Origin: Caryophanales bacterium | GTDB taxonomy: Bacteria > Bacillota > Bacilli > CAJFEE01 | Reading direction: 5' to 3' | DNA: 64,000 nt | NCBI GenBank assembly: GCA_029256085.1 | Contig: JAQSYP010000010.1 | Coordinates: forward strand, 1 to 64,000 | In this document: positions 120 to 57,171 of the stretch, in pieces | How the letters are laid out: each line of letters begins with the position of its first letter | Position numbering within the stretch: position 1 is the stretch's first letter | The notes under the pieces: generated by a model | What the model was told of the DNA's origin: nothing | What the model saw: only the letters and a program-made list of their open reading frames with translations | The model's database searches: none | Translations under genes and position numbers: made by a program

Positions 120-228
120 AGCTAATAGGAAATTATAAACTCTGACTAGTTCATACTTTCCTAACGCATAAGTGCAACTACGGCTCTGCCGTCGCCTTAT
201 AGGCTCGGCAATCGCCGGGTTTTCTTTA
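120..228 (+). repeat. interspersed three-hairpin repeat, copy 1
   Basis: First of five copies of a family of about 109 bp. It starts AGCTAATAGG directly after the T-run of a terminator-like hairpin and ends TTTTCTTTA. Hairpin 1 pairs TAGGAAATTAT with ATACTTTCCTA (one mismatch here). Hairpin 2 is ACGGC-TCT-GCCGT. Hairpin 3 pairs CTCGGC with GCCGGG (one G-T pair) and is followed by TTTTCTTT, an intrinsic terminator facing hpf. The unit lies upstream of hpf. This is the most divergent copy in the hairpin 1 loop. Confidence 0.9.
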
Positions 229-15330: not shown

Positions 15331-15423
15331 TTCTATCGAGCAAATTTACAATTCTATCGAGCAAATTTACAATTCTATCGAGCAAATTTACAATTCTATC
15401 GAGCAAATTTACAATTCTATCGA
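15331..15423. repeat. 21-bp tandem repeat upstream of uvrB
   Basis: Four identical 21-base units (core ATCGAGCAAATTTACAA) run from 15331 to 15414, with a ninth-base partial fifth unit, ending close to TTGTCGAAAA at 15429. There are no spacers, so it is not a CRISPR array. Because 21 is a multiple of three, an open frame passes through and spells a repeated FYRANLQ, but no start signal supports translation. It lies between the pdxST terminator and the uvrB promoter; the rest of the 370-base gap holds only the LexA-regulated promoter. Confidence 0.95.
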
Positions 15424-15454
15424 TCATATTGTCGAAAACAGTCCTACATAACAT

Positions 15455-32847: not shown

Positions 32848-32954
32848 AGCTATAGGAAAGTATAAACTTCTGCGTAGTTCATACTTTCCTAACGCAGTGC
32901 AACTACGGCTCTGCCGTCGCCCTTAAGGGCTCGGCAATCGCCGAGTTTTCTTTA
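32848..32954 (+). repeat. interspersed three-hairpin repeat, copy 2
   Basis: Starts AGCTATAGG directly after the tRNA-Arg terminator and ends TTTTCTTTA. Hairpin 1 TAGGAAAGTAT/ATACTTTCCTA is perfect. Hairpin 2 is ACGGC-TCT-GCCGT. Hairpin 3 CTCGGC-AATC-GCCGAG plus TTTTCTTT is a perfect intrinsic terminator. Two bases of the linker (AACGCAGTGC instead of AACGCATAAGTGC) are reduced compared with other copies. Confidence 0.92.
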
Positions 32955-42141: not shown

Positions 42142-42609
42142 ATGCCAAAAGGTGAAGGTAAAATAATAGCACAAAATAAAAAGGCTTATCATGATTATTT
42201 TATAGAGGAAACATACGAGACGGGTATGGTATTACAAGGAACAGAAATTAAATCGATTCGTGCTGGTAAGGTTCAGTTAAAGGATTCATTTGCACGTGTG
42301 ATGCGTGGAGAAGTTTTCGTACATAACATGCATGTTAGTCCATACGAGCAAGGAAACAGATATAATCACGATCCACTTCGTACACGTAAGCTACTTTTGC
42401 ATAATAAAGAAATTGCAAAGCTTATTGGTTATGTTAAAGAAGAAGGGTACACTCTTGTTCCTCTGAAAATTTATCTAAAAAATGGATTTGCAAAATTGCT
42501 TCTTGGTTTAGGTAAAGGTAAAAAGAACTACGATAAACGTGAAGACTTGAAGAGAAAAGAAGCAGGACGCGATATCGAGAGAGCTTTCCGGGAGCGACAA
42601 AAGTTGTAA
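42142..42609 (+). CDS. smpB: SsrA-binding protein SmpB
   Basis: A 155-residue tmRNA partner that loads tmRNA onto stalled ribosomes. The oligonucleotide-binding fold ([38 protein letters not shown]) and the basic C-terminal tail ([18 protein letters not shown] region) are typical. Start ATG 42142 follows GGAGGTG; the longer frame from 42106 would cross that site. ssrA begins 137 bases downstream under its own promoter. Confidence 0.97.
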
Positions 42610-42658
42610 TTACTTTGTCAACATCAAAGTTGGAGGTAATTCTGTAAGAATTAGTCAG

Positions 42659-42686
42659 TTGAATAAGTGATAGCATATGTTATAAT
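42659..42686 (+). promoter_or_regulatory. ssrA promoter
   Basis: TTGAAT and TATAAT (42681-42686) are separated by 16 bases, with a TG extension (TGTTATAAT). Transcription would start near 42693, leaving a short 5' leader for processing to the mature tmRNA end. Confidence 0.75.
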
Positions 42687-42746
42687 AGGTATTGTAGCAA
42701 CAACGCACATTGAGAATTAAATTTCCCGTTTGTGCCCTTATAATAA

Positions 42747-43090
42747 GGGGACGTTACGGATTCGACAGGGGTAGTTTGAGCCTTGGTCGCGAGTCGAGGG
42801 GTCGGCCTCGTAAAAACGTAAACGCCTATAACTGGCAAAAACAATTACGCTTTAGCAGCTTAATGCTAAAACCTTTACTCTCTATCGCCCATGTAGAGTA
42901 CTAAAGGTTCAACTTTAGTGGGATACGCCGGAGTCCACCGTCTGAGGACAAAGGAAGAGACTAACCAGACTAGCCATTAGAACGCCTGTCAGTAGGCAAA
43001 CTAATGTGCGAAATCCAAATATACTGACTACACTCGTAGACGCCTTGGTGGCAATATTTCTGGACGTGGGTTCGACTCCCACCGTCTCCA
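42747..43090 (+). ncRNA. ssrA: transfer-messenger RNA
   Basis: A 344-base tmRNA that rescues stalled ribosomes and tags the incomplete protein for ClpXP. The tRNA-like ends pair (GGGGACG with CGTCTCC, discriminator A), and the T-arm GGTTCGACTCC is present. The tag reading frame at 42834-42863 reads GKNNYALAA then TAA; with the charged alanine the tag is AGKNNYALAA. The terminal ALAA is the proteolysis signal. The tag is short, resembling the B. cereus form rather than the 14-residue B. subtilis form. CCA is not encoded (TCA follows). The start and end are placed from the acceptor pairing. Confidence 0.96.
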
Positions 43091-43130
43091 TCATAGTTTT
43101 ATCTGATGGTTACTACACATTTAAAGAAAT

Positions 43131-43174
43131 GAAGCATAAGTTTTCCGAATTGGAAAGCTTATGCTTTTCTTTTT
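43131..43174. terminator. ssrA terminator
   Basis: AGCATAAG-TTTTCC pairs with GGAAAG-CTTATGCT, followed by TTTTCTTTTT. Repeat copy 3 begins at the next base. In reverse it could also end the convergent nuclease gene. Confidence 0.85.
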
Positions 43175-43272
43175 AGCTATAAGGAAAGTATAAACTTCTG
43201 CGCAGTTCATACTTTCCTAACGCATAAGTGCAACTACGGCTCTGCCGTCGCCCTTAAGGCTCGGCAATCGCC
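43175..43272 (+). repeat. interspersed three-hairpin repeat, copy 3 (3'-truncated)
   Basis: Starts AGCTATAAGG directly after the ssrA terminator. Hairpins 1 and 2 are intact, but the copy stops after GGCTCGGCAATCGCC and lacks the CGAGTTTTCTTTA end, so hairpin 3 and its T-run are lost. The truncated end is fused to the coding sequence of the convergent nuclease lipoprotein, whose stop codon (43234-43236) and last dozen codons lie inside the repeat. Confidence 0.9.
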
Positions 43273-44205
43273 ATCTCGATCGTCCATATATTTATAAATC
43301 CATGATTCGCGAGTAATGGGCATTTTAAAGCCAGCAGCTTTGGCTTCAGCTATCGTAACTCTTCCGTTATGATTGGTATCCACCTTACTAACATCTTCAT
43401 CACTATTTACCGTTTTGTTTACTGGCAGATTGTCTGTTTTCGATGGCGTACTACTCGTATCTGTCGTTTTTCCTAAATTTTTGTTCACTTCATCTGGGTT
43501 TACATTGTCAAATTCATCTGTAATAGAACTGCCTTGAATTTTGTATGTAAATTTAAAGTGGTTAGGAATTTGCGTCTCTATATTAGGGTATTGAATCACT
43601 GCTACGAAATCTGTACAACCTCCTGTATCTCTAATTACTTTTTCCATATAAGCTTGATCTCCGTGCCTATTGAGAATGCTATTTTGAGGTGTAATGTTAT
43701 ATGCGTTAGATACGCCCCCAAGTGAATCAGCAATCACATGCCCTTCATCTAATTCTTGACTCTCGGTACCGGGAACCTTTGCTTCATCAGAATAGTATCT
43801 CCCAGACGATAAAACATGTTCAGTATTCGGATTTTGAAGTGATATAATTTTTGCCTCAACACGAATTAGCTGTCCGTATTCATTTGTAAAAGCCCAATAC
43901 TCCCTGTCGCCAAACCCAATATCAACTCTAACATTAGGCTGTCTATATCCTGACATATCTCCGCCATCTACTACAATTAGTGTATATTTACTGTAGTCAA
44001 AGTCACCATTAACACTTGTTGGTGTATTAGTGGCAGGAACAATGGGACTGACTACGCTTTCACTAGTCGCCTTTTTGGCCTTATCATCTACTGTACTTTT
44101 TTTGCTTTCTGTATTTATTTGTTGTGAGCAACCAGTAGATAAAATAAGTAGTGAAAGTAGTAATAAATTAACCACCCATGATTTTTGATAATATTTATGT
44201 TTCAT
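43234..44205 (-). CDS. secreted DNA/RNA non-specific endonuclease lipoprotein with a rewritten C-terminus
   Basis: A 323-residue lipoprotein: signal peptide with lipobox LSTGC (about 23-27), a Ser/Thr-rich linker, an NS_2-type non-specific nuclease domain (about 70-225; core DEGHVIADSLGG and NITPQNSILNRHGDQAYME), another linker and a calcium-binding Excalibur-like end (about 277-315, DTNHNGRVTIAEAKAAG and YMDDRDGD). Homologues in Bacilli end with DGDG plus a few residues. Here the sequence after DRDGD is CRALRATAEP, encoded by repeat copy 3, so the last part of the calcium loop is altered. Nuclease activity should be unaffected. It may scavenge extracellular nucleic acids. Confidence 0.85.
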   Translation of the reverse strand: MKHKYYQKSWVVNLLLLSLLILSTGCSQQINTESKKSTVDDKAKKATSESVVSPIVPATNTPTSVNGDFDYSKYTLIVVDGGDMSGYRQPNVRVDIGFGDREYWAFTNEYGQLIRVEAKIISLQNPNTEHVLSSGRYYSDEAKVPGTESQELDEGHVIADSLGGVSNAYNITPQNSILNRHGDQAYMEKVIRDTGGCTDFVAVIQYPNIETQIPNHFKFTYKIQGSSITDEFDNVNPDEVNKNLGKTTDTSSTPSKTDNLPVNKTVNSDEDVSKVDTNHNGRVTIAEAKAAGFKMPITRESWIYKYMDDRDGDCRALRATAEP

Positions 44206-44340
44206 ATCGCACCTCTTTTTATAAGTGAGTGGAATTCTATATTTGTGTTTAATTTATAATTTCATGCCACATTATTAACGTCAAGCTAAAACTTAGACAA
44301 TGGTATCGGGACATAGAAGCTTAATATAGTTATATACATG

Positions 44341-44363
44341 AATAGTTAAACTGTTTAACTATT
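44341..44363. promoter_or_regulatory. perfect palindromic operator before marR
   Basis: The 11-base arm AATAGTTAAAC and its exact complement are separated by one T. It lies 39 bases before the start of the MarR gene, in the promoter region. MarR-family proteins bind palindromes of this size and usually repress their own operon, so autoregulation is likely. Confidence 0.75.
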
Positions 44364-44401
44364 AAACAGTAGAATAAAATCAAGAAGGTGAACATATATA
44401 A

Positions 44402-44866
44402 ATGACGGATAAAAATATTAAAGATTTAGTAGATAGGTATATTGCTGTATCTTTTTCGGTTCATAAAAAGGCAGAACAACTAATCCAAGATGAAATCGGA
44501 AGTGGGTTAACTAATGACCAACATTATGTACTAAGGTATATGAATAAGGTTGGTACGTGTACATCATCTGAGTTAGCTGATGTTTTTGAAGTGAAAAAAA
44601 GTGCGATTACGGCAATCATTACTCGTTTGTGGGAAAAAGGATTAATTCAACGTACACGTGATGTAGATGATAGAAGGGTAGTTTACCTAACACTTACAGA
44701 ACAAGGACAAAGTTTATTCGATAAAACCGAGGATAGAATCCATAAACTAGTTGGATCTTTCATCAACCAATTTGATACATCTGAAATTAACCAGTTTATA
44801 AATACTTATGAAAAATTGAATAACATCTTAATTGAATCTTGTGAATGCAGGGGGAATAAAGAGTGA
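44402..44866 (+). CDS. MarR-family transcriptional regulator
   Basis: A 154-residue winged-helix regulator (about 30-110; CTSSELADVFEVKKSAITAIITRL and DVDDRRVVYLTLTEQG, the wing with its conserved DxRxxxxxLT). A CECRG sequence near the C-terminus holds two cysteines that might sense oxidants or metals. The gene overlaps the MMPL transporter by four bases (GTGA), so it most likely controls that pump. AGAAGGTGA precedes the ATG. Confidence 0.9.
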   Translation: MTDKNIKDLVDRYIAVSFSVHKKAEQLIQDEIGSGLTNDQHYVLRYMNKVGTCTSSELADVFEVKKSAITAIITRLWEKGLIQRTRDVDDRRVVYLTLTEQGQSLFDKTEDRIHKLVGSFINQFDTSEINQFINTYEKLNNILIESCECRGNKE

Positions 44867-47800
44867 ATTTAATTATTAAACAAAGATGGATAGTAATAGT
44901 CGCTTGGTTAGCAATAGTAATAGGGTTATTCCAAGTTGCACCAAACATGAACGACCTTGTACGTGAAAAAGGACAAATTGATGTACCGGATGGATATTCA
45001 TCAAAACTTGCAGCGAAAATTCTTGATGATGTTAAAGAAGATGAAGGTGGAGATGACTATTCCACAGTAGCGCTGGTTTTACATGATGATAAGAAACTAA
45101 ACGCATCAAAAATCACAGAGGCTGAAAGAGCTATAAGGCTTTTAGAAAAAAAACAAAATGAATTAGGTATAACTGAAATTATTACTCACTTTAATCAGAA
45201 AGATCTAGAAAAACAGTTAGTATCAAAAGACGGTAAAGCAATTTTGGTGTCGCTTAAGGTTGAATGGAAAGATCGAGAACCTAGTGAAATTAGTGATGCC
45301 TTATACAAAACTATTGAAGATGTAAAAGTAGACCACCATTACACAAGCTCATGGATGATTTCCGAAGCCGTAATGAAAAGCTCTGAAGAAGGTTTGAAAA
45401 AGACTGAGGGAATTACTGTAGTATTTATTTTAGCAGTACTTTTTATCGTATTTAGATCAGTTTTCGCTCCGTTTATTCCTTTAATCACGGTTGGGTTTAC
45501 GTATCTTTTATCTCAATCTATCGTATCAATTTTAGTTGATAAGTTTGATTTTCCAATTTCAAACTACACGCAGATTTTCTTAGTAGCAATTTTATTCGGA
45601 ATAGGTACGGATTACTGCATACTTCTTCTAAGCCGTTTTAAAGAAGAAATGGCTATTAGGGAAAGTAAGATAGATGCAATCCTTGAAACTTACAAAAATG
45701 CTGGTCGAACGGTATTTTTTAGTGGATTAGCAGTAATGATTGGGTTTGCTTCAATTGGTTTCTCAGAATTCAAACTATATCAATCTGCAGCAGCTGTGGC
45801 AGTTGGTGTTGCAATATTATTAGTCGCATTGTTTACGATCGTTCCCTTTTTCATGGCGACTCTTGGCCAAAAGATTTTCTGGCCTTCAAAAGCAAAGGCT
45901 GAACATGGTGAAAGTAAGCTTTGGGGAGTAGTTGGTAAATTTGCGTTAACTAGACCTTTCATGGCACTAATAGCTGTAGTTATTGTATGTTTACCTTTCC
46001 TTGCTAATTATGATGGGGATTTATCATATAATCAAGTTGAAGAGATTGATGATAAATATCCAACAATCCAAGCATATAACGCTATTTCAAAAAGCTTCAA
46101 ACCAGGTGAATCAATGCCGACAAATATAGTTATTAAAAACGATGAAGAAATGAATTCAGAAGAGTATATCGCATTAGCTGAAAAAATTTCTCAAGAATTA
46201 AAAAAAGTAGATTTAGTTGATGTAGTCAGATCAGTTACTAGACCAACAGGTGATCCTATTGAACAACTTTATGTATCTAAACAAGCTGATAGTTTAGAGG
46301 ATGGCCTTGGAAAAGGTAAAGATGGGGTTGATAAAATTTCTGATGGTTTATCAAAAGCAAGCATAGACTTAGCTAAATCTGAACCGCAACTAAAAAGCGC
46401 AGTTAATGGTATAAATAGCCTTGTTACAGGCACTGACAAACTTAAAACAGGTCTTGTTGAAGTAAACATAAACCTTTCTAAAATTGAGAATGGAATTCGT
46501 CAAGGTGCAGCAGGCTCAGAACAAATTAAAGGCGGCTTAGTTCAAGCAAAAGCTGGTGCAGTTCAATTGCTTGATGGTTATAAAAAATTATCAAGCGGAT
46601 ATGAAGATGTTGGTGCGAACTTAACAACTTTAAGTACAGAATATAATAAAATTGGATCAGGATTAAGTGCACTTAATTCTGAACTTAATAAAATCCAACC
46701 AGAGAACTTTTCTAATATCGAAGGAAGCTATTCGGGTATTGTTAATAACACAGATTATCAAAAAGTTAAAGGGACAGTATTAATGCTTCAACAACAGTTG
46801 AGCCCATTGGCACAAGGATTAACTGAACTGAACAATGGGTTAGGTAATTTAAAAAGTGGTGTTTCTACGGCAAACGAAGGATTTAAGGAAGCAAACGCTG
46901 GAAACCAGCAATTTATTAATGGTTTAGAGGAGCTTATCGTCGGTATTGATACGCAATTAGCAGGATTAAAACAATTAGCTGATGGCCAAAGTCAAATCGT
47001 ATCCAATATGCCTCTAGTTACAAATGGATTGACTGATGTTAACTCTGGACAAAAGAAATTATTAGACGGTTTTGGCGGATTAACAGGACAGATATCTAAG
47101 TTAACGTCTGGTTTAGATCAAAGTGCTAAAGGTCTTGAGCAAGTTTCTTCTGGCTTAGGATCAGCACAAGATTATTTATCAGGACTATCTCAGTCAGAAA
47201 CAACAAATAGTTTTTATCTACCAAAAGAAGTTTTGGAAAGTGAAGATTTCACTAAAGCTTTAGATGCTTATATGTCTAAAGATAGAAAAGTAATGACAAT
47301 CGATGTAATTTTTGATGCAAATCCATATTCAAACGAGGCTATCGATAAAGTTAAAGAAGTAAAAGCTGCTGTTAAGCGTGCCACTAAAGATACTAAGCTT
47401 GAAAATGCCGAGGTTGCAATAGGCGGAATAACTAGTGTTAACTATGATTTAAACAAAATGTCTAATTCAGACTACTCAAGAACAGTCGTTTTAATGTTGC
47501 TCGGAATTTCTTTAATTCTTGTTTTCTTATTTAGATCGTTGATTATGCCAATTTATATAATTGCATCGTTAATTTTAACATTCTATACTTCAATGGCAGT
47601 TAACGAAGTAATATATGTAAATATTTTAGGATACACGGGAATTAGCTGGGCCGTACCATTCTTCGCCTTTGTTATTTTAGTAGCGCTTGGTGTGGACTAT
47701 AGTATTTTCCTAATGGATCGATTTAACGAATATACGGAATTATCAATTGCTGAAGCGATGTTGACTTCAATGAAGAAGATGGGGACTGTAATTATATCAG

Positions 47801-47982
47801 CAGCAGTTATTCTTGGGGGTACGTTTGCAGCAATGATGCCATCAGGAATGTTATCATTACTCCAAATAGCTTCAATCCTTTTAGTAGGGCTATTCCTATA
47901 CACGCTAGTTATCCTACCATTATTTATCCCAGTAATGGTTAAAAACTTCGGTGAAGGCAACTGGTGGCCTTTCAAAAGATAA
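44863..47982 (+). CDS. MMPL/RND-family membrane transporter
   Basis: A 1039-residue transporter with about twelve membrane segments in two MMPL halves (about 1-385 and 790-1035). Between them is a long extracellular stretch (about 450-780) with many GL..L..G repeats predicted as helical or coiled coil, as in YdgH/YdfJ-type proteins of B. subtilis. The GTDYCILLLSRF and GVDYSIFLMDRF motifs in the fourth segment of each half are typical of proton-driven MMPL pumps. GTG start overlapping marR. Substrate unknown; export of a drug, lipid or surface-active compound is likely. Confidence 0.88.
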   Translation: MNLIIKQRWIVIVAWLAIVIGLFQVAPNMNDLVREKGQIDVPDGYSSKLAAKILDDVKEDEGGDDYSTVALVLHDDKKLNASKITEAERAIRLLEKKQNELGITEIITHFNQKDLEKQLVSKDGKAILVSLKVEWKDREPSEISDALYKTIEDVKVDHHYTSSWMISEAVMKSSEEGLKKTEGITVVFILAVLFIVFRSVFAPFIPLITVGFTYLLSQSIVSILVDKFDFPISNYTQIFLVAILFGIGTDYCILLLSRFKEEMAIRESKIDAILETYKNAGRTVFFSGLAVMIGFASIGFSEFKLYQSAAAVAVGVAILLVALFTIVPFFMATLGQKIFWPSKAKAEHGESKLWGVVGKFALTRPFMALIAVVIVCLPFLANYDGDLSYNQVEEIDDKYPTIQAYNAISKSFKPGESMPTNIVIKNDEEMNSEEYIALAEKISQELKKVDLVDVVRSVTRPTGDPIEQLYVSKQADSLEDGLGKGKDGVDKISDGLSKASIDLAKSEPQLKSAVNGINSLVTGTDKLKTGLVEVNINLSKIENGIRQGAAGSEQIKGGLVQAKAGAVQLLDGYKKLSSGYEDVGANLTTLSTEYNKIGSGLSALNSELNKIQPENFSNIEGSYSGIVNNTDYQKVKGTVLMLQQQLSPLAQGLTELNNGLGNLKSGVSTANEGFKEANAGNQQFINGLEELIVGIDTQLAGLKQLADGQSQIVSNMPLVTNGLTDVNSGQKKLLDGFGGLTGQISKLTSGLDQSAKGLEQVSSGLGSAQDYLSGLSQSETTNSFYLPKEVLESEDFTKALDAYMSKDRKVMTIDVIFDANPYSNEAIDKVKEVKAAVKRATKDTKLENAEVAIGGITSVNYDLNKMSNSDYSRTVVLMLLGISLILVFLFRSLIMPIYIIASLILTFYTSMAVNEVIYVNILGYTGISWAVPFFAFVILVALGVDYSIFLMDRFNEYTELSIAEAMLTSMKKMGTVIISAAVILGGTFAAMMPSGMLSLLQIASILLVGLFLYTLVILPLFIPVMVKNFGEGNWWPFKR

Positions 47983-47985
47983 TTT

Positions 47986-48018
47986 TTCAGAGACAATCTT
48001 CGGGTTGTCTCTTTTTAT
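47986..48018 (+). terminator. terminator of the marR-MMPL operon
   Basis: AGAGACAA/TTGTCTCT around TCTTCGGG, then TTTTTATTT. Confidence 0.85.
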
Positions 48019-48063
48019 TTCCAAAACTGTAAAAATTGTATATTATCGAATTGAGGTGATACT

Positions 48064-48267
48064 ATGCCATACGTTAATATCAAAATAACTAATGAAAATG
48101 TTACGCCAGAACAGAAAGCACAGCTAATTAAAGGGGCAACACAATTACTAGTCGATGTTCTTGGTAAAAATCCTAGCACAACAATTGTTGTAATCGATGA
48201 GGTACATACTGACAATTGGGGAATTGCAGGAGAAACTGTTACTGAACGCAGAAAGCAAGGCAAATAA
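48064..48267 (+). CDS. 4-oxalocrotonate tautomerase family enzyme
   Basis: A 67-residue protein that begins MPYVNIKIT, leaving the catalytic Pro-1 after removal of Met. A mid-protein basic and acidic pattern and the VIDEVHTDNWGIAG segment match the 2-hydroxymuconate tautomerase family (YwhB-like in B. subtilis). The natural substrate is not known. TTGAGGTGA precedes the ATG. Single-gene unit with its own terminator. Confidence 0.9.
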   Translation: MPYVNIKITNENVTPEQKAQLIKGATQLLVDVLGKNPSTTIVVIDEVHTDNWGIAGETVTERRKQGK

Positions 48268-48303
48268 AAACAGGGTAATCTAATTCGATTCCCCTGTTTT
48301 TTT
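48266..48303. terminator. bidirectional terminator between the tautomerase gene and phnE
   Basis: AAACAGGGTAATC pairs with GATTCCCCTGTTT, with T-rich flanks on both strands. It serves the tautomerase gene and, in reverse, the phnCDE operon. Confidence 0.8.
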
Positions 48304-48308
48304 ACTTT

Positions 48309-48417
48309 GCTATAAGGAAAATATAAACTTCTGCGTAGTTCATACTTTCCTAACGCATAAGTGCAACTACGGCTCTGCCGTCGCCCTTAAGGCTCGGCAA
48401 TCGCCGAGTTTTCTTTA
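48309..48417 (+). repeat. interspersed three-hairpin repeat, copy 4
   Basis: Starts GCTATAAGG five bases after the tautomerase terminator T-run and ends TTTTCTTTA. Hairpin 1 has one mismatch (GGAAAATAT/ATACTTTCC). Hairpin 2 is perfect. Hairpin 3 CTCGGC-AATC-GCCGAG plus TTTTCTTT is a perfect terminator. The phnE stop codon (48387-48389) and its last nine codons are inside the repeat. Confidence 0.92.
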
Positions 48418-50048
48418 ACAATTTTCCGTGATAATCCTGATAAAAAGTCAGTAACAAAAACAATAACAATGTAACAGATAAGTAGCAGGGTCACATTAGT
48501 GTAGTCAAAGAAACTCATACTCATTTTAAACTCCTGGCCGAGCCCGCCTGCACCGGCTAATCCAACTACAATTGTTGTACGGATGATTACTTCAGCACGA
48601 TAAAACAAGAAAGATAAAAATTGTGGGAAGACTGATGGAATAACGCCGTAAAATAACATCTGAACATAATTTGCCCCGTTCAATTGTAAATTTCTAATTG
48701 GTCGTGTATCCATTTCATCAATAACTTCTGCCCATAATTTTCCGAGTATACCGATATTATGGAGAGCTAGTGCGATAGCCCCTGGTATTATACCTGGCTT
48801 AATGATGAAGACTATTAACATTGCCCAGACTAGCTCAGGTACAGATCTTGTAAAAATATAAAAACCTCGGATAAGATAGAAAAATGGTTTTGTAAGTAGA
48901 GAATTACCCATTGTTAATTGCCCAGTTGCAACATTTTTAGATGCTAGTAACACTGTTAACAAAGATGCAACAGCAGTAAAACCAATCGCAAGCACTCCCA
49001 TTATTATCGTTTCAATAGTAAGTGAAATAGCATTTTTCCACTGTTCAATATCTAAGAAGGCAGGATTTTCTACTCCAATCCCAAACATACTTGAGAAAAA
49101 CTTCTTGGCAAAGAGTAAGTTGTTTTCAGTAAAAATACCGAAAAACGAAGCGTCATCTAAAGAAATAATGTAAATCCACGTTGTTAAAGCTAGAAAAACT
49201 GCTAAAACTTGTGAAATTTGGACCCAATTCATTTTTTTTCTTTCGTGTTTAGGGATATTCATTGATTCACGCAATTTAATGCTCCAAAAGTCTAATAGAA
49301 CAGCCATTGCAACTAAGAAAAATATAAATGTCCAAACTTCATCGAATTTTAAATCTGATAATGAAAGTTGAATTTGATAACCAATTCCAGCTATTCCGAT
49401 AAAACTCATTATTGCTGAAGACCTTAACGCACATTCAAAACGATACATTGTGTAGCTAATGATATTGGCTGAAACCATTGGTAAATATCCGTAAAATAAA
49501 GTCTGAAGACGTGAGGCACCAGACGTTCTTAAAGCTAAAATTGAGTTTTTAGGGGCATCTGCAAGGATATCTGCTAAAATCCGCCCAAGAATCCCGCCAT
49601 AAGGAATGCCTAAAGCAAAAACAGCTGCATATGGTGATAAGCCTATTGAAGATACAAAGAGAAACGCCCAAACTAGCTCATGGATTGCACGGATGAATCC
49701 TAAAAATGATCTGGAAATTGTAGCAATCGCATTCCCGAACACACTATTCCCAAATAAAACTCCTGATCCAAGAGTTCCGAAAATAACAGCGATAACAATT
49801 GCAATGAGCATACCAGCGGAAGCGTACATAAGTGTAATAAAAGTTGCTTTTACCCCCAAAATTAGAATTTCTGGGGATAGATTTGGCTTAAATAACGATC
49901 CTAAAATCAGAAAAGTAGTGTTTGCGCCATTAGAGTTGAAAAGATCCTTGTCCCATGAAACTGAAAAAACGCTCCAAAAGAAAGCGCAAATTAAGCTGAT
50001 AGTTAATATTAATTTTCTATGAAGACTGATCCTAGATATTAAGGTCAT
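48387..50048 (-). CDS. phnE: phosphonate-type ABC transporter permease, two PhnE domains fused
   Basis: A 553-residue permease containing two BPD_transp_1 units (about 60-265 and 330-545), each with its own EAA-type cytoplasmic loop (for example SILALRTSGASRLQTLFYGYLP and NLQLNGANYVQMLFYGVIP) and the ELVWA segment. Most phn operons encode one PhnE of about 270 residues, or two separate ones; here one polypeptide does both. The C-terminal KENSAIAEP is encoded by repeat copy 4. Start ATG 50048 follows AAGGAG; the longer frame overlaps phnC. Confidence 0.88.
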   Translation of the reverse strand: MTLISRISLHRKLILTISLICAFFWSVFSVSWDKDLFNSNGANTTFLILGSLFKPNLSPEILILGVKATFITLMYASAGMLIAIVIAVIFGTLGSGVLFGNSVFGNAIATISRSFLGFIRAIHELVWAFLFVSSIGLSPYAAVFALGIPYGGILGRILADILADAPKNSILALRTSGASRLQTLFYGYLPMVSANIISYTMYRFECALRSSAIMSFIGIAGIGYQIQLSLSDLKFDEVWTFIFFLVAMAVLLDFWSIKLRESMNIPKHERKKMNWVQISQVLAVFLALTTWIYIISLDDASFFGIFTENNLLFAKKFFSSMFGIGVENPAFLDIEQWKNAISLTIETIIMGVLAIGFTAVASLLTVLLASKNVATGQLTMGNSLLTKPFFYLIRGFYIFTRSVPELVWAMLIVFIIKPGIIPGAIALALHNIGILGKLWAEVIDEMDTRPIRNLQLNGANYVQMLFYGVIPSVFPQFLSFLFYRAEVIIRTTIVVGLAGAGGLGQEFKMSMSFFDYTNVTLLLICYIVIVFVTDFLSGLSRKIVKENSAIAEP

Positions 50049-50049
50049 A

Positions 50050-50802
50050 TTAAATAATCTCCTTAAGTTCATAAAGATTATTTAATAACTCATCAGTGAC
50101 TTCTGATGAAGGTAGATCAAACGTAACTCTTCCGTCGCGAAGTGCAATAATTCTAGTAAAATATTTTCTAGCTAATTCTACAGAGTGTAAACTAGCAAAT
50201 AGAGTAAGATTTTCTTCAGACGCAAGTCTAGTTAGAGTTGAGATAATATCATCTGCTCTAGCTGGGTCTAATGATGAAACAGGTTCGTCTGCTAAAATAA
50301 TTTCAGGCTTTTGGACTAGTAATCTGGCCAGAGCAACTCGTTGCTGCTCTCCTCCAGAAAGACTGGATGTTTGTTGATAAATCTTGTCTTCTAAGCCAAC
50401 TCTTTTTAATGCAGTTAGTGCTATTTCCTTATCCTGTGGTACGACAAGTGACATTAACGATTTAAACAGACCCCAATCTGATAAGCGGCCAGCTAAGACA
50501 TTATTAATAACAGTAAGTTGTCCAACTAAGTCAAACTGTTGTCTAATAATACCGATTTTCTTAGCGAGGTGCTTATTGTTTTTATATTTATTAAGAGGAA
50601 GATTAGAAATAGTTATTTCGTCTTTAGTAGTTTTATTTAGTCCTATTAAAGAATTTAAAAGAGTAGTTTTACCAGCACCACTTGGGCCGATTATAGCTAC
50701 AAGCTCTCCCTTTTTAACCGTAAAGGAAAGGGAAGATAAGATTATCTTCCTCTCCAAATTTACTGTTAAACTGTTGAGCTCAATCGCAGTTGATTGAGTC
50801 AT
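50050..50802 (-). CDS. phnC: phosphonate-type ABC transporter ATP-binding protein
   Basis: A 250-residue ATPase with Walker A GPSGAGKTT, signature LSGGEQQR, Walker B IILADEPVSSLD and the H-loop (SLHSVELA). It powers uptake through PhnE. The start ATG 50802 is preferred to a GTG nine bases earlier because the AGGTG ribosome site overlaps that GTG. phnE begins two bases after its stop on the same strand. Confidence 0.9.
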   Translation of the reverse strand: MTQSTAIELNSLTVNLERKIILSSLSFTVKKGELVAIIGPSGAGKTTLLNSLIGLNKTTKDEITISNLPLNKYKNNKHLAKKIGIIRQQFDLVGQLTVINNVLAGRLSDWGLFKSLMSLVVPQDKEIALTALKRVGLEDKIYQQTSSLSGGEQQRVALARLLVQKPEIILADEPVSSLDPARADDIISTLTRLASEENLTLFASLHSVELARKYFTRIIALRDGRVTFDLPSSEVTDELLNNLYELKEII

Positions 50803-55239: not shown

Positions 55240-55350
55240 AGCTAATAAGAAAGTATAAACTTCTGCGTAGTTCATACTTTCTTAACGCATAAGTGCAACT
55301 ACGGCTCTGCCGTCGCTTTTAAAGGCTCGGCAATCGCCAAGTTTTCTTTA
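55240..55350 (+). repeat. interspersed three-hairpin repeat, copy 5
   Basis: Starts AGCTAATAAG and ends TTTTCTTTA. Hairpin 1 is TAAGAAAGTAT/ATACTTTCTTA: compared with TAGGAAAGTAT/ATACTTTCCTA in copy 2, both sides changed together and pairing is kept. Hairpin 2 is perfect. Hairpin 3 has one mismatch (CTCGGC/GCCAAG) followed by TTTTCTTT. Its last three bases are the stop codon of the convergent aldehyde oxidoreductase gene. Confidence 0.92.
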
Positions 55351-57171
55351 TTGTTCTACTTTTTCTAAAATACCTAGCTCACGAAGTTTCTCGGCTGGAA
55401 CTACACCATCTTTCCATCCGCGTACTTCATAATACTCTTCAAGCATTATATCCATACGGCTTACATGTCCTGCACTATTTCCAGATGCAGGTTCTTCTGT
55501 GAATCGTTTTGGTAAGAAGTCGTCTTCGCGCTTATTGAAACCAGCAAGGTTATTATAGTAACGCTCAAGGTTGTAAATTCTTTCACCTGCTAACATTACA
55601 TCCTCAGCTGTCATTGGAATACCTGTCATCGTACTATATTGCTCTGCGTAATGCTCAGCATTTTCTGAGAAAGATGAGAATTTACAAATATTCATTGAGT
55701 CACCAAATGCAAGCATATCTTGGAATACTTTTAGTAGAGCACCTTTTCCTTTTGGCTCAAGTCGATCTGTAGGTTCTGGGATACCAGCAATTTCACTCGC
55801 AACAGTATAACCACGTAAGTGACAAGCACCTCGGTTACTAGTTGCATATCCAAGACCAATTCCTTGAATTCCTCGAGGATCGTAAGCTGGAATTGATTGA
55901 CCTTTTACAGACATAGAAAGTTCAGGAGCACCCCACGCTGACGTAGCGCGTGCAGGTCCATCAGCAAGAACGTTTCCAAATCCTTCACGGTATGCAATTT
56001 TTCTTGCAAGTTCAATCATTCTATCCGCATCGCCCCAGTCAAGCTTCTCATCGACTAGTCCTTTTTCATAGGCTTCCATAGTAACTGACATTGAATGACC
56101 AAGCTCAATCGTATCCATTCCATACTCATTACATACATCGATTAAGTAAGCAATTGCTTCTGGGTTGCTTAAACCACTATTAGTACCTACAGCCCAAGCA
56201 GATTCGAACTCAATGCTTTCAACTTTAGTTTTATATTTTCCTTCTTTTACTTCAACCTCAATTTTACAAGCTACAGGACAAGCATGACATGCATTATTAG
56301 AAACTAACAAATTGTCCTTATAAAACTCTCCACTATGATTCTCGGCCTCAGCCCAATTAGTTAACTGAGAATTCTTCGTAGGTAATGCTCCTACTTCATT
56401 TATAAGGTTTGTTAGAACGTTTGTACCATAAACAGAAAGACCACCTTTGCGAGGAGCAGTTAGACCACCTTCTAAGATTGCCTTTGTTGCTTTTTGATTC
56501 GCTGCCTTATTTTCCTCAACAAACTTTGGTTCAGGCATATTTCCTTTTTGCTCTGCTTTAATTACTATTGCTTTTAAGTTCTTAAAGCCCGCAACAGCAC
56601 CTGTACCGCCACGCCCAGCAGAACGATCATTTTCATTCATGAAACAAGCATAAAGTACTTGATTTTCACCAGCTTGACCAATTGTAATAACACTTAAATT
56701 ATCTTCACCATATGTAGATTTCATAAGTTGAACTGTTTCTCTTGTACTTTTACCCCAAATACTAGAAGCATCGCAAAGTTCAGCAACACCATTTTCGATA
56801 TAAAGATAGACTGGCTTATCACTTTTACCTTTAAAGATGATGTTATCAACTCCAGCCCATTTTAGTCGAGCTGCACTATAACCACCCATATGAGAATCAG
56901 TAACCGTTCCTGTTAGTGGAGATTTAGTTACAACTGCGAGCCTACCACTCATTGAAGAGCGTGAACCTGTCACAGGCCCTGTCATAATACACAGGATGTT
57001 TTCAGCAGATAATGGTTCAACTTCAGGTCCATTATCAAGTACGTATTTAACCCCTAAACCTCTTCCACCGATGTACTTCTTGGCAAGATCTTCATTAATT
57101 TCTCTGTAATTTACTGTGCCGCTTGATAAATCAACTAATACTTCTTTGTTCTTAAAGCCACCAAGATTCAT
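55348..57171 (-). CDS. tungsten-type aldehyde ferredoxin oxidoreductase
   Basis: A 607-residue enzyme of the AOR family, which oxidises aldehydes to acids with a tungsten-bispterin and a 4Fe-4S cluster. Motifs: N-terminal GGRGLGVKYVL, GPVTGSRSSMSGRLAVVTKSP, cluster ligands C-x2-C-x3-C in CHACPVAC (about 295) and a fourth Cys near MNICKF, and the pterin segments YDPRGIQGIGLGYATSNRGACH. The gene overlaps no neighbour. Rare in Bacillus; AOR is usual in anaerobes and archaea. The stop is in repeat copy 5. Confidence 0.93.
   Translation of the reverse strand: MNLGGFKNKEVLVDLSSGTVNYREINEDLAKKYIGGRGLGVKYVLDNGPEVEPLSAENILCIMTGPVTGSRSSMSGRLAVVTKSPLTGTVTDSHMGGYSAARLKWAGVDNIIFKGKSDKPVYLYIENGVAELCDASSIWGKSTRETVQLMKSTYGEDNLSVITIGQAGENQVLYACFMNENDRSAGRGGTGAVAGFKNLKAIVIKAEQKGNMPEPKFVEENKAANQKATKAILEGGLTAPRKGGLSVYGTNVLTNLINEVGALPTKNSQLTNWAEAENHSGEFYKDNLLVSNNACHACPVACKIEVEVKEGKYKTKVESIEFESAWAVGTNSGLSNPEAIAYLIDVCNEYGMDTIELGHSMSVTMEAYEKGLVDEKLDWGDADRMIELARKIAYREGFGNVLADGPARATSAWGAPELSMSVKGQSIPAYDPRGIQGIGLGYATSNRGACHLRGYTVASEIAGIPEPTDRLEPKGKGALLKVFQDMLAFGDSMNICKFSSFSENAEHYAEQYSTMTGIPMTAEDVMLAGERIYNLERYYNNLAGFNKREDDFLPKRFTEEPASGNSAGHVSRMDIMLEEYYEVRGWKDGVVPAEKLRELGILEKVEQ

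Follow-up and report, generated by a model that had tools for sequence, protein, structure and literature searches.

A nuclease gene ending within a truncated copy of a terminator-associated repeat element in a Caryophanales bacterium

Described repeats and the element of this genome

Repeats that overlap the C-terminal ends of genes are already known from Coxiella, in which QMITE1 copies overlap these ends by 2-50 bp and QMITE2 copies lie mainly in 3' untranslated regions (PMC5896051). The bcr1-bcr3 repeats of the Bacillus cereus group are likewise found in UTRs, and bcr1 has been reported as specific to that group (PMC3446304). REP and BIME palindromes, including GTAG- and CGTC-tagged REPs, are mobilised by RAYT (Y1) transposases (PMC3733652), and structured stem-loop intergenic repeats of 70-75 nt, Bhal-1 and Bant-1, have been described in Bacillus genomes (PMC2267715).

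The repeat analysed here, found in a 64,000-nt stretch of DNA (the window) from a Caryophanales bacterium, is a small non-coding mobile element of ~110 nt in this genome and 70-115 nt elsewhere. Like QMITE1, QMITE2 and bcr1-bcr3, it is short, non-coding and interspersed in tens of copies, but its anatomy is different: it has no flanking direct repeats where an insertion site is resolved, is fixed behind terminator T-tracts and carries a conserved box between two hairpins. It resembles a MITE in being short, non-coding, multicopy and polymorphic for presence or absence, whereas terminal inverted repeats and a target-site duplication are both lacking, the ends being GCTA or GTCGA on the left and CTTTA or CTAA on the right, with two internal hairpins and no inverted ends. 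With REP/BIME sequences it shares extragenic hairpins, a position at gene 3' ends and the lack of coding capacity, and a 72-nt filled/empty alignment shows the precise insertion without target-site duplication that is typical of REP and IS200/IS605 elements. However, its box and anatomy differ from those of REP/BIME, and neither this genome nor several of the genomes richest in the element contain a Y1 transposase. The lack of inverted ends and duplication on the one hand, and of a Y1 enzyme on the other, therefore makes the element neither a typical MITE nor a REP. Bhal-1 and Bant-1 were compared with it by description rather than by sequence, and Bhal-1 could overlap with this family.

IS200/IS605-type elements carry hairpins near both ends and insert precisely 3' of a short motif without duplicating the target. 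The element is similar to their non-autonomous forms in its hairpins near both ends and its precise insertion without duplication, but it has no Y1 association, and its target seems to be recognised through a terminator hairpin and T-tract. Group IIC introns insert behind intrinsic terminators, and the element also lies directly behind such terminators; however, it is far too short for an intron of this kind, the genome has no RVT_1 match, and no Rfam intron match was found in the element stretches scanned. The element family is the new part of these observations, and no description of its box sequence or of a terminator-associated family of this kind was found in the open-licence literature.

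Anatomy, placement and mobility of the element

Searching the 2.63-Mb genome for the repeat core gave 69 matches, of which 48 lie on one strand of the contigs in their written orientation and 21 on the opposite one. A reversed control pattern has none in the same genome, so its overlap with the nuclease gene described below is not due to chance. In the 66 copies read out of these matches, the unit begins GCTA(A/T)(A/T)AGGAAAGTATAAAC and ends CTCGGCAATCGCCGAGTTTTCTTTA, and the order is hairpin 1, the conserved box ATAAGTGCAACTA, hairpin 2 and then AGTTTTCT followed by TTA or AA. In nearly all of them the GCTA start lies immediately 3' of a T-rich tract ending in A or G. The 42 nt before GCTA fold as a hairpin (mean -13.7 kcal/mol, vs -3.9 for shuffles; 91% lie below the shuffled 5th percentile), and the upstream gene is directed at the repeat in 55 of the 64 copies for which it is readable, usually across a gap of ~30-60 nt. 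The element would thus insert in one orientation, directly 3' of the T-tract of an intrinsic terminator, leaving the target unduplicated.

Among 400 Bacilli genomes, blastn with the element gave matches in 15, and the strict pattern ATAAGTGCAACTA-N(26-50)-AGTTTTCT was present in 41, covering 22 of 145 genera with up to 44 copies per genome; the reversed control of this pattern had no match in the same genomes. From genome to genome the box and the terminal AGTTTTCT are constant, and the stem sequences of both hairpins vary in concert. In an arm-swapping test of stem pairing within and between sequences (200 shuffles), hairpin 2 paired at 6.5 of 8 positions within vs 4.9 between sequences (highest shuffle 5.28), and hairpin 1 at 6.8 vs 6.1 (highest shuffle 6.36). 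Single pairs in the terminal hairpin also change on both sides across genomes, and the right end looks terminator-like. RNAalifold on a first alignment, in which hairpin 1 was misaligned, gave short stems only. Rfam held no family for the element in the copies at window positions 42600-48600 and 14 further loci, where three weak matches appeared; plasmid records yielded one weak match to the element and phage records none. One of these three, at or beside the copy in L213 (1455-1650), fits the guanidine-I riboswitch below threshold (51.9 bits, cut-off 63).

Mobility is evident from a 72-nt element that occupies an identical place within one genus, with four genomes filled and five empty. The filled site reads TTTTGTTTTG-GTCGATAAG...TTTTCTAA-GATCTTATTG and the empty site TTTTGTTTTGGATCTTATTG, with no target duplication and a placement ambiguity of at most 1 nt. 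At a second presence/absence locus in this genus, orthologous terminators either have or lack an element behind them, the left boundary alone being resolved. Such pairs represent insertion or precise excision, and either means mobility. The stretch upstream of the 72-nt site folds at -39.5 kcal/mol, as a strong terminator, and the gene just 3' of the site reads as gcvT-like. As the site lies behind a strong terminator that precedes this gene, the target is seemingly the terminator rather than a gene 3' end; the family may accept any terminator hairpin with a T-tract, apparently including this regulatory one. At L304-L315 (genus g23), the element lies between the strong terminator upstream of the gcvT-like gene and the ribosome-binding site of that gene, where it may interfere with a regulatory leader.

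Y1 transposases (PF01797) are absent from this genome and from five others (G018, G372, G120, G384 and G164), four of which have 25-44 element copies, and RVT_1 reverse transcriptases have no match in this genome. A Y1 transposase or a reverse transcriptase as the current mobiliser in this genome was therefore rejected. We give about even chances to the full reading, in which a Bacilli-wide family with a terminator-like right end targets intrinsic terminators, inserts or excises precisely without duplication and is moved by neither a Y1 enzyme nor a group II reverse transcriptase. An element that lands only behind terminators without duplication, keeps its box fixed while its stems are free to change, and is abundant without the usual enzymes raises the question of which enzyme moves it and whether terminator hairpins are read as single-stranded DNA.

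Beside 15 full-length copies a long convergent ORF reaches or enters the element's right end, and 10 of these 15 genes stop exactly on its last three bases, TTA read as TAA. Profile matches beside such copies are complete for CorA (319/320) and a formate/nitrite transporter (237/239), and a ferritin likewise appears complete. As convergent genes end complete there, the normal landing point of the element is the stop codon, for which it substitutes its own without loss; however, A is so common in the left flank of the ten stop-codon loci that a TTA or CTA there departs only mildly from expectation. At other sites the element lengthens or alters the gene end slightly, as for PhnE (48387-50072) beside copy 4, which ends VKENSAIAEP and a stop, whereas the joined flanks would give VK-stop, right after RKIVK. 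Because the element supplies stop codons to many neighbouring genes, the annotation of 3' gene ends is affected in these bacteria.

The altered C-terminus of the nuclease

Table 1. Features of the window at and around the element copies
Feature	Position	Strand	Basis
Repeat copy 1, full length, after T-tract	120..228	+	sequence
Repeat copy 2, full length, after terminator 3' of tRNA-Arg	32849..32954	+	sequence
ssrA (tmRNA), tag GKNNYALAA	42747..43090	+	ARAGORN; Rfam RF00023, 207.6 bits
ssrA intrinsic terminator, hairpin AAGCATAAG...CTTATGC and T-tract TTTTCTTTTTA	43132..43175	+	sequence; hairpin energy
Repeat copy 3, canonical left end (GCTATAAGG...), right end truncated in terminal hairpin	43176..43272	+	sequence
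Secreted DNA/RNA non-specific endonuclease lipoprotein, altered C-terminus	43234..44205	-	ORF; Pfam Endonuclea_NS_2; lipobox Cys26
10 codons CRALRATAEP from repeat, in place of GLVGE	43237..43266	-	sequence and relatives
Junction ATCGCC (GGCGAT on minus), assignable to gene or repeat	43267..43272	.	
Repeat copy 4, full length; convergent phnE extends 31 nt into copy	48309..48417	+	sequence
Repeat copy 5, full length; last TTA = stop of convergent aldehyde ferredoxin oxidoreductase-like gene (55348-57171)	55241..55350	+	

The nuclease ORF, read from 44205 to 43234 on the minus strand, terminates in YMDDRDGDCRALRATAEP, and the C-terminal residues of the protein are YMDDRDGD-CRALRATAEP. The first-pass annotation had proposed that this end consists of repeat bases, and the coordinates bear this out: copy 3 contains the stop codon (43234-43236) and all ten sense codons before it, whereas the two preceding G-D codons could have come from either gene or repeat. 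Copy 3 breaks off at GGCAATCGCC and lacks the final 12 nt (GAGTTTTCTTTA) that are present in other copies, rather than the 13 nt first given.

All 80 named relatives of the nuclease end in the pattern [DN]x[DNE]x[LMV]-[VI]-G-[EK]-stop, their final residues being G/S/E-[LMV]-[VI]-G-[EK], and this nuclease is the sole exception. Across 45 full relative proteins the final residues hardly vary (V 45/45, G 45/45, E 44/45). The earlier expectation that relatives end with an acidic loop and never in CRALRATAEP was thus upheld, none of the 80 carrying that ending. The notion that the ending arose as natural variation within the nuclease family, independently of the repeat, is refuted by this absence and by codons identical to the repeat sequence, and retains practically no probability.

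The lipobox Cys26 and the catalytic region DEGHVIADSLGG agree with those of relatives and the first acidic loop (VDTNHNGRVTIAEA) is retained, while the second acidic loop and the final glutamate have been lost. A second calcium-binding-like loop may thereby have been lost functionally. The label Excalibur, initially applied to the missing end, finds no Pfam match in the nuclease or in the two relatives tested, in which Pfam returned Endonuclea_NS families, spurious weak matches and, in one relative (L060), a faint EF-hand. AlphaFold2 gave a mean pLDDT of 40 with the altered end and 50 without it, values too low for a structural claim.

An assembly or sequencing error would be conceivable, since the assembly is a draft and the junction lies within a sequence present ~69 times. 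However, a misjoin at a repeat would link full copies, whereas here a unique right flank runs into the middle of a copy. Within the window alone five copies are resolved on the contig, and an independent junction of the same kind exists at another copy (L146, described below). Such an error is very improbable.

Proposed history of the fusion

The left end of copy 3 follows directly on the T-tract of the ssrA terminator, placed as the left ends of other copies are, and the hairpin energy before this T-tract is in the same range as at those copies; the ssrA terminator is the insertion target of copy 3. Insertion into the nuclease without DNA loss was rejected, the normal gene end being absent beyond the element. 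With a canonical left end and no nuclease 3' remnant found on the far (left) side of the copy, insertion alone cannot explain the lost GLVGE, so a deletion comprising the right end of the element and the end of the nuclease is needed. The first-pass annotation had taken copy 3 as direct evidence that the repeat moved, or was recombined, into coding sequence. This stands insofar as the gene end is repeat-derived, relatives without the repeat are normal and the family is mobile, as its filled and empty sites show, but the canonical left end behind the terminator and the missing remnant speak against the repeat itself having moved into the gene. Copy 3 is better taken, with partial support, as evidence of insertion beside the gene and later deletion than of direct transposition into it.

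The best account of the fusion, and probably the correct one, begins with canonical insertion at the nuclease stop and ends with an in-frame deletion of 33 nt. The element would have entered 3' of the ssrA terminator, very probably at the nuclease stop itself, and its terminal TTA would have served as the new TAA stop, as it does for ten other convergent genes. A deletion from GG(C/T)GAT in the DGDG codons of the nuclease to GGCGAT in the terminal hairpin of the element would then have removed GLVGE, the stop and the element's last 12 nt, and translation would have continued for ten codons into the repeat. In a reconstruction, the usual nuclease end joined to a canonical element end (TAAAGAAAACTCGGCGATTGCC...) gives RDGDGLVGE-stop before the deletion, and removing 33 nt yields exactly the observed RDGDCRALRATAEP, RDGD-CRALRATAEP. 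We infer the order of these events, and slippage as the mechanism of the deletion. The GGCGAT microhomology proposed earlier for the junction would span 6 nt if the gene had GGC, but only 2 nt if it had GGT, and the longer form is uncertain, as 77 of the 80 relatives lack the GGCGATGG form and mostly have GGTGAT, leaving 2 nt.

A second 3'-truncated copy, L146 (contig C4, ~14.77 kb), is cut in the terminal hairpin and fused in frame to a convergent menA, whose protein ends VATRLPSLKGDGRAVVALMR / LPSLKGDGRAVVALMR and whose profile match is 21 positions short (290/311). The gene there loses roughly its last 20 residues (the final helix region). In these two of ~66 copies read, each joined to a convergent gene, the breakpoints lie only a few bases apart, following GGCAATCGCC in one and GGCAATCG in the other, and such near-identical positions could mean incomplete insertion rather than later deletion. 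The element would then have inserted already 3'-truncated and taken the nuclease end with it, the fusion being a direct product of movement as in the first-pass annotation, and the canonical left end of both truncated copies fits this as well. However, the nuclease's own last codons, absent on the left side, would need an extra loss, the right end is complete in nearly every other copy examined, and one deletion accounts for both losses, so incomplete transposition is unlikely. It is also possible that the nuclease was already shortened before a truncated insertion, since YMDDRD is followed by an in-frame TAA when the left flank is joined directly to the right side of the truncated copy.

The state before the proposed deletion was not found in a close strain or species; G001, the sole other family member examined, has neither the nuclease nor the repeat, and the DNA 3' of its ssrA is unrelated. 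This absence, together with the rarity of the nuclease among 60 class relatives and best named matches in Metabacillus and Neobacillus (77-87%), would also fit a nuclease acquired horizontally that lost its end on arrival, through illegitimate recombination with a repeat already behind ssrA. Yet the incoming piece would have had to end by chance at GG(C/T)GAT, a deletion between adjacent sites is simpler, and none of the 80 relative nuclease loci has a member of the repeat family nearby; we hold horizontal arrival to be improbable, somewhat more so than incomplete transposition. The fusion is in itself a minor, unremarkable accident, yet it illustrates how repeats supply new protein C-termini.

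Other repeats adjoin the element elsewhere. A second repeat (TGTGAAAATAAAAAATTGTTGGGCTAAAAGTAGAGGACAC...) follows directly after the element's GAGTTTTT in six copies (L119, L128, L177, L184, L186 and L191), and its inner ~155-nt segment has opposite orientations in different copies (79-97% identity). At L107, L115 and L189, the terminator to the left of the element resembles a relic element end (GGC..GCCAAGTTTATTT), as if elements had inserted behind older ones. In addition, the window contains at 15331-15435 a tandem array of ~5 copies of the 21-nt unit TTCTATCGAGCAAATTTACAA.
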